From NCBI GenBank assembly GCA_964017185.1, contig OZ024875.1, positions 30,203,456 to 30,267,455 of the forward strand: a DNA stretch of 64,000 nt. Reading direction: 5' to 3'. Below the pieces are notes generated by a model. The model searched no databases. It had not been told where the DNA came from and was given only the letters and a program-made list of their open reading frames with translations. This DNA comes from Rugalucina vietnamica. Lineage: Eukaryota; Mollusca; Bivalvia; Lucinida; Lucinidae. Below are positions 24,901-27,900 of the stretch, one piece after another. Positions within the stretch are counted from its first letter, which is position 1, and each line of letters begins with the position of its first letter. Position numbers and translations under genes: made by a program.

Positions 24901-27900
24901 AGCTATAGACACAAAATAGCTCTTTTTTTTAGTTGTGAGCACATCAGATAACCTTAGTGAGATATAGCCCTTACTTGGAATAAATTTGAGCCGCCTCATG
25001 GGAAAACCAACAATGTGGTTTCCGAACAGGTCTGACACAAAGCGCGCTGAACGGCTACAGAAGCAGGCTAGAAGCTTGAAATTTTGGATTTATGTAAGGG
25101 AGGAATTGTACTATCCAAGTAGCGAAAACAAAGGCGCTGATCAGCTTCGCGGTTACTTACCGCAAAGCTGATCTGCGCCTTTGTTTTCGCCTATGCAGAT
25201 TGTTGGTTTTCCCATGAGGCGGCTCAAATAATTACATCTAAACAGAACTCTTGTGCTTTTAATAGGACTTTTGAAGAGGCCTGATCAGCTATACATGTAG
25301 ACACAAAATAGCTCTTTTTTTCAGTTTTGAACACGTCAGATAACCTTAATGAGATATAGTCCTTACTTGGAATAAATTTGAGCTGCCTCATGCGAAAACC
25401 AACAATGTGGTTTCTGAACAGGTCTGACACAAACCGCGCTGAACGGCCACAGAAGCAGGCTAGAAGCTTGAAATTTTGAGTTAAGTAAAGGAGGAATTGT
25501 ACTATCCGAGTAGCGAAAACAAAGGCGCTGATCAGCTTCGCGGTTACCGTGAAGCTGATCTGCACCTTTGTTTTCGCCTATGCAGATTGTTGGTTTTCCC
25601 ACGAGGTGGCTCATTTATTAATGAAGTAGATTTACAATTATGGTAAAAATCCTGATTATTAAAAGCAGTAGATAGACATTGCTTTATGAAGTACTAAATC
25701 CACCACCAAGTAATCTTCAAAATGAAACCTACTCTGTTTATTGGCAGCCGTTGATGTCGTCGTTCCTGATGTCGTAGCAGTGCTACCAGCCGTTGTGTAG
25801 TAACTGGAGTAGTCATAGTTCTGGTCGTAGTTTGAACCTTCGTAGTACTGGCCATTACTATAGTAACCAGACTGATCATAGCCTGACTGATTGTAGTATT
25901 CGTTGTAATCTTGTTGTTGGTAATACTCTCCTTGCTGATCATAGTTCTGTAAGAATCATGTTTGTTAGCAAACAATGTCATAGAAGAAGACAGAAGTTAA
26001 TCTCACAAACTCTCCTTGCTGGTCATAGTTCTGTAAGAATCATGTTTGTTAGGAAACAATTACATAGAAGAAGACAGAGGTTAATCTCACAAACTCTCCT
26101 TGCTGGTCATAGTTCTGTAAGAATCATGTTTGTTAGGAAACAATTACATAGAAGAAGACAGAGGTTAATCTCACAAACTCTCCTTGCTGGTCATAGTTCT
26201 GTAAGAATCATGTTTGTTAGGAAACAATTACATAGAAGAAGACAGAGGTTAATCTCACAAACTCTCCTTGCTGGTCATAGTTCTGTAAGAATCATGTTTG
26301 TTAGGAAACAATTACATAGAAGAAGACAGAAGTTAATCTCACAAACTCTCCTTGCTGGTCATAGTTCTGTAAGAATCATGTTTGTTAGGAAACAATTACA
26401 TAGAAGAAGACAGAGGTTAATCTCACAAACTCTCCTTGCTGGTCATAGTTCTGTAAGAATCATGTTTGTTAGGAAACAATTACATAGAAGAAGACAGAGG
26501 TTAATCTCACAAACTCTCCTTGCTGGTCATAGTTCTGTAAGAATCATGTTTGTTAGGAAACAATTACATAGAAGAAGACAGAGGTTAATCTCACAAACTC
26601 TCCTTGCTGGTCATAGTTCTGTAAGAATAATGTTTGTTAGGAAACAATTACATAGAAGAAGACAGAGGTTAATCTCACAAACTCTCCTTGCTGGTCATAG
26701 TTCTGTAAGAATCATGTTTGTTAGGAAACAATTACATAGAAGAAGACAGAGGTTAATCTCACAAACTCTCCTTGCTGGTCATAGTTCTGTAAGAATAATG
26801 TTTGTTAGGAAACAATTACATAGAAGAAGACAGAGGTTAATCTCACAAACTCTCCTTGCTGGTCATAGTTCTGTAAGAATAATGTTTGTTAGGAAACAAT
26901 TACATAGAAGAAGACAGAGGTTAATCTCACAAACTCTCCTTGCTGGTCATAGTTCTGTAAGAATAATGTTTGTTAGGAAACAATTACATAGAAGAAGACA
27001 GAGGTTAATCTCACAAACTCTCCTTGCTGGTCATAGTTCTGTAAGAATCATGTTTGTTAGCAAACAATGTCATAGAAGAGGACATTAGTTAATCCCACAA
27101 ACTACACAAAGCTTAGCCAAAATTCTATAAGCATTATCAACTGGACTATTAAATTCAGAGAAACACATTGTCAACATTTAGTTTGGTCATTTTATTTCCA
27201 ACCTGATAAGCCTTACACGTTTCAAGTCTTAACATGACAAGCAGGATTCAGATCCATGAGTACTTGTACTTCTAACCACACTTAGCTAATACTAAAGCTT
27301 ATCATTATTTTCTAAAGACCAAACAGCCTCTAAGACTCAACTCTTATTCTATTTTGTATTTTATGAAAGTGGCTTACCTGTGAAGCACTTTGTGCTGCTT
27401 GTATCTGACTAATGCTGAAAAACAAGATAGGGGCCTTTGCATGAGAAAGCAAATTTGGTTTCCGACCAGGTCCAAAGCAGGCCTGTCTGTTCAGACACAG
27501 AAGCAGGCTAGAAACTTGAAATTTGGAATAAGTAGAGCACAGCTGGTCTGCGCCTTTGTTTTCGCATATGCAGATTGTTGGTTTTCTGTTGTAGCAGCTC
27601 AAATGTTATGTTGTACTTAAACTTCAAAATACAACAACTGCAAACTCAAGCATTTTGCATGAAACACATACCTATTTCAGAACCGTTTTTTAAATTTTAA
27701 GTTCTGGTATATAATGTTACAACACATTTTTATAATCAGTTGCTTCTGCTCTCCTCTTTGTTTTCTTACAGAGTGAACTAGAATTGTCAGAGATTCTGAC
27801 TATAGCCCCGCTTCTCAGCTTTTTTGCAGGGTGAAAAAAACAATGACAGGTAACTATTACAAGCTAGATCTCGTCAATATTGATGTGCATACAAAATTTG

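Follow-up and report, generated by a model that had tools for sequence, protein, structure and literature searches.

The window analyzed in this study (the whole 64-kb stretch of DNA) carries on its minus strand the gene that is the subject of this report (Table 1). The strand was read by eye, and the 21 modelled exons, joined from 40840 to 19419, gave 939 codons and a stop. The modelled exons range from 37 to 329 nt and the 20 modelled introns from 228 to 3647 nt. A Pfam search of the modelled protein placed RRM_1 at residues 199 to 261, OCRE at 582 to 630 and G-patch at 868 to 910, all above the cut-off, and a RanBP zinc finger at 289 to 309, below it; a second RRM was not listed by this search. 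The best PDB match was "RNA-binding protein 5" (9ze0; E 7.8e-60), covering query residues 5 to 440 of the central 441, and the regions of the zinc finger and of the second RRM aligned to chains that the PDB names RNA-binding protein 5 or 10. The order RRM, RanBP zinc finger, second RRM, OCRE and G-patch, which is that of the RBM5/RBM10 family, was thereby recovered. Because of these Pfam and PDB matches the host gene is, as judged by sequence, RBM5/RBM10-like, and an earlier note on this DNA had correctly called it an RBM5-type gene. Exon 11 opens with NYDQQGEY at the acceptor at 25946, and its donor was picked so that the frame continues into exon 12. Elsewhere in the window, reverse-transcriptase-like open frames at 15849-18018 (minus strand) and 10651-14936 (plus strand) were judged by eye to be probable non-LTR retroelements, and a 398-codon open frame at 62682-63875 (minus strand) had, by eye, the look of a leucine-rich-repeat protein.

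Table 1. Features of the RBM5/RBM10-like gene and its tandem repeats in the window
Feature	Coordinates	Strand	Basis
RBM5/RBM10-like gene (939 aa; 21 coding exons in the model)	19419..40840	minus	Gene model, Pfam and PDB
Two-copy 41-bp duplication (100% matches) spanning the exon 16 acceptor (P, 22623)	22611..22694	minus	TRF
Exon 11 (K) of 214 nt (1 modulo 3), with its donor at 25733 (AACAGA/GTAGGT)	25733..25946	minus	Gene model
Start of exon 11 inside the array, 21/22 match to the unit	25925..25946	minus	
84-bp minisatellite across the intron-exon boundary, with 13 extra acceptors among its 14	25925..27103	minus	TRF and unit listing
13 extra units from the first copied acceptor, each 24 nt exon-like (NYDQQGEF) and 60 nt intron-like	25947..27038	minus	
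Left array edge, where the intronic part of copy 1 (GTGGGATTAACTAATG...) has diverged; probably the original end of the intron	27039..27103	minus	
Exon 10 (J) of 37 nt, with SASQ at its end in phase 0	27378..27414	minus	Gene model

The earlier note had placed 13 extra 84-bp units in front of the acceptor of exon 11. This was confirmed by TRF, which returned for 25925-27103 a period of 84, 14.0 copies, 98% matches and 0% indels, and by a script run over 25800-27500, which found 14 TTCTTACAG acceptors on the minus strand, from 27038 down to 25946, with 84 bp between neighbors in 13/13 spacings. Every one of the 13 extra units also carries the signals described for it, namely, CTAAC, TTCTTACAG, the 24 nt AACTATGACCAGCAAGGAGAGTTT (reading NYDQQGEF) and then GTGAGA, and the geometry given for them (phase 0, with a 24-nt exon-like and a 60-nt intron-like part) is correct. 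CTAAC occupies a constant position in all 14 units; its branch A lies 18 nt from the end of the acceptor (measured in one unit), and 41 nt precede it in each would-be 60-nt intron. With the boundary taken from the gene model, the unit takes in 62 nt from the end of intron 10 plus the initial 22 nt of exon 11. The best matches to it elsewhere in the window spanned only 16 and 12 nt, with an E value of 0.23. A plus-strand open frame over the array (436 aa) was rejected as meaningful; 28 consecutive sense codons have a probability of 0.26.

Comparison of the copies revealed that each of copies 2 to 13 is identical to copy 7 at 83 or 84 of 84 positions and that the edge copies are more distant, with 76/84 for copy 1 (52/60 over its intronic part) and 78/84 for copy 14. 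Three intronic letters are common to copies 1 and 14 and missing from the interior copies. The earlier claim that all copies keep the frame and the splice signals intact is true, but it carries little information, because copies 2 to 13 are near-identical. With a homogenized interior and divergent edges, the array shows the pattern expected of amplification from inside. Assemblies often get the length of near-identical tandem arrays wrong. Nevertheless, single-base variants are spread among the copies and both edges are diverged, which makes it unlikely, as far as the sequence can tell, that the array itself is false, and we regard an assembly error in part of the copy number, or in the array itself, as highly improbable.

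The sequences at the boundary suggest how the array may have arisen. At the left flank the sequence is TGTGTAGTTTGTGGGATTAAC and in exon 11 it is GGAGAGTATTACC; where two units meet it is GGAGAGTTTGTGAGATTAAC. The simplest account is probably a single tandem duplication over the boundary at the common AGT, in which the intronic AGT would have been joined to the exonic AGT. Such a duplication would explain why the exon-like part leaves the exon 11 sequence after GAGAGT, and why a GT stands just after the exon-like part, since this GT would have been intronic before the duplication. The junction would have set the intronic GTGAGA behind the exonic piece, creating a donor-like site by accident, and the interior units would then have been amplified and homogenized, either by slippage during replication or by unequal exchange. 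That the array grew from the acceptor of exon 11, as had been proposed, is supported by the unit listing, the gene model and the comparison of copies.

Tandem repeats over intron-exon boundaries have been described in amphioxus, in Adh3 and in the globin genes BflGb6 and BflGb9, under the name "mirage" minisatellites (PMC3087553). According to that report, their length differs between haplotypes and their edges escape homogenization, and the Adh3 data together with globin RT-PCR suggested that regular splicing is undisturbed; a second report speaks similarly, describing like duplications in lancelet PGBD5 and citing TnC (PMC3902484). Human tandem repeats located where exons and introns meet may give rise to introns (PMC2812944). 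The array shares with the amphioxus mirages a minisatellite-sized unit spanning the boundary (10 to 72 bp in Adh3 and 150 to 160 bp in the globins; here, 62 nt of intron end plus 22 nt of exon 11), the presence of splice signals in many units, and concerted evolution of an interior from which the edges are excluded (here, 83-84/84 versus 76 and 78/84). It differs in having 13 extra units, compared with 6 and 3 repeat units in two BflGb6 haplotypes, and in its host gene, which is a splicing regulator. Moreover, length variation and normal splicing were reported for amphioxus, whereas the array here is known from one sequence. The array fits the mirage type, with a copy number above that of the amphioxus globin example and a place in an RBM5/10-like gene. 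Among the literature matches listed, which cover RBM5 and bivalves thinly, there was no boundary-spanning array in an RBM5-type gene or in a bivalve.

We favor, with a probability of about 0.75, the reading that the array is a mirage-type minisatellite and that all of it most likely leaves the RNA within intron 10. In the gene as modelled, exon 10 would join the last acceptor (25946) and the array would be removed inside intron 10; this acceptor is favored because it alone is followed by a normal-sized exon whose donor is established. Against removal of the whole array stand the copied acceptors, which by their signals are not inferior to the real one and have CTAAC in all cases, and a potato duplication of the same geometry that is spliced. 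The potato RdRp gene is reported to have gained a real intron from one duplication, with 106 RNA-seq reads over the junction (PMC4974935). There, as here, the intron end and exon start were duplicated, and acceptor, branch site and pyrimidine tract were inherited. The potato case has a single duplication, an exonic GTAAG donor and junction reads, whereas the putative donor here is GTGAGA, intronic in origin and weak in score.

The earlier note had further raised the possibility that the units are used as exons. On this reading they would serve, in at least some cells, as symmetric 24-nt micro-exons and would lengthen the protein by eight residues or a multiple of eight just ahead of the Tyr/Gln-rich tract of exon 11. 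All 13 units indeed preserve an open phase-0 frame together with an acceptor, a branch site and a donor-like GT, and the octamer resembles the tract downstream of it. The potato gene offers a precedent in which a boundary-spanning duplication is spliced, and for 15 of 22 conserved human introns shorter than 66 nt, one study gives evidence of splicing (PMC4463651). The copied acceptors scored 5.7 bits, like the real one, with copies 2, 3, 4 and 6 better at 7.1; since their scores match the real one and 5/20 modelled acceptors fall below 5.7 bits, the acceptor side of the copies is plausible and by these signals not inferior to the real one. The donor, however, is weak: on a matrix built from the 20 modelled donors of this gene, TTT/GTGAGA scored 2.2 bits, with four of these donors lower (leave-one-out), and 188 of the 926 intronic GTs outside the array (20%) reached the same score (20% of 993, with the same conclusion, when the array was included). 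The introns would be 60 nt long, with 41 nt before branch A, against 228 nt for the shortest modelled intron, and the exons 24 nt, against 37 nt for the shortest modelled exon.

The neat appearance of the units also was compared with that of simulated duplications. Among 20,000 random duplications over 18 acceptors, from which the two acceptors of the gene that are already duplicated had been left out, 2,507 (12.5%) produced a short exon that was open, kept the frame and had a donor at least as good; the figure rose to 28.1% when the donor had only to be no worse than the weakest modelled donor and was 11.9%, leading to the same conclusion, when the two duplicated acceptors were included. A systematic set of duplications near this geometry gave equally good candidates in 1,474/11,808 cases (12.5%). 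The exact 62/22-nt geometry did so at only 2 of the 18 other acceptors, a mild coincidence but not nothing. Because roughly 12.5% of simulated duplications do as well, the micro-exon look of the units is mildly unusual, not striking. Selection on the units left no sign in the variable columns, which are few: copies 2 to 13 have only two, both intronic (P 0.51 under no constraint), and the 14 copies have nine intronic ones, with none in the nine GT, CTAAC and AG columns (P 0.21). Both patterns fit an absence of constraint, and both are too slight to tell against it. With a weak donor, 60-nt introns, no sign of selection and comparable products in 12.5% of simulated duplications, the sequence lends the proposal no support; the case for it is weak, and we consider micro-exon use unlikely.

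The units invite comparison with the micro-exon genes of flatworms, in which, as would be the case here, a large number of short exons with lengths in multiples of three would permit inclusion to be graded (PMC7653826); the units here differ in being near-identical minisatellite copies whose use as exons is only putative. A micro-exon gene is defined there by at least seven exons, at least half of them micro-exons (<70 nt and divisible by 3), and a run of at least four. Among the 21 modelled exons of the present gene only those of 57 and 48 nt qualify, which places it outside the definition. Adding all 13 units would bring the count to 15/34, still less than half, and would supply the run.

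The consequences of using an internal acceptor were then read from the gene model. Joined to exon 11's own donor, the internal acceptors lead to a stop after 21 codons in 13/13 cases, and skipping of the 214-nt exon 11 shifts the frame; among these outcomes, the frame survives only when an internal acceptor and an internal donor are used together. The likeliest splicing error would be a stop-containing transcript rather than a micro-exon, because the acceptor of the nearest copy would yield a 298-nt exon, which is of ordinary size. The copied acceptors might accordingly be imagined as decoys that compete with exon 11, a wrong choice giving stop transcripts and lower output, and a U2-associated RBM5-type protein could sense this in an autoregulatory manner. 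RBM5 was found on spliceosomes arrested just after branch-site recognition, according to a preprint (PMC13041897), an analogy that makes the decoy idea interesting and would not amount to evidence for it. RBM5 also has been reported to use U/C-rich elements (PMC10349855). Each unit carries the pyrimidine-rich CTCTGTCTTCTTCT, and 14-nt windows in which 13 or more letters are pyrimidines crowd together in the array, which has 26 of them in 1152 nt, compared with 49 over the remaining 20243 nt of the gene; however, this is one tract repeated, and the sites are not independent. Seven of the motifs quoted for RBM5 or RBM10 in PMC10349855 were searched for, and none had an exact match in the array. 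One-mismatch matches to AAGGAAAG and to GAAGGAG numbered 13 each, one per unit, and no Rfam family reached the gathering threshold in 18000-42000. An array that lowered the output of an important gene also would be expected to face counter-selection, and we hold a decoy function to be distinctly unlikely. It seems very unlikely that the array is a length-variable splicing rheostat in which the 14 branch sites, tracts and acceptors compete for a U2-bound RBM5-type protein. Were it so, copy number and protein level would together set correct joining of exon 11, the number of octamers, or loss to stop-containing isoforms.

The locus offers a natural experiment, having 14 near-identical acceptors 84 nt apart in one intron. 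If only the last acceptor is used, the array would show how strongly a downstream exon dictates the choice of acceptor. If others are used, an array of new exons or introns would have been captured as it arose, in a gene with relatives that govern the choice of splice sites. The 41-bp duplication at the acceptor of exon 16 provides a matched case with two copies, where splicing to the wrong one must lead to a stop. If the upstream copy were chosen, translation would add DMEK and then terminate, and for this reason a working gene must, from its sequence, use the downstream copy.

Splice sites do not appear to be special targets of such repeats, since TRF arrays make up 33% of the gene span and contain 2 of the 40 splice sites in the model. 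The window as a whole is rich in minisatellites. A 151-bp minisatellite at 27842-30876 (19.7 copies, 79% matches) takes up most of modelled intron 9, and long-period tandem repeats are found at 24609-25613 (392 bp), 34135-35644 (156/468 bp) and 50727-52401 (461 bp). A MITE-like element, roughly 245 bp long and self-complementary over its inner 65 bp, was detected by blastn at 20894-21140 and in about 15 other places in the window. Several of its copies lie in introns of the RBM5/10-like gene, one of them stopping some 20 nt short of the exon 12 acceptor (24588).
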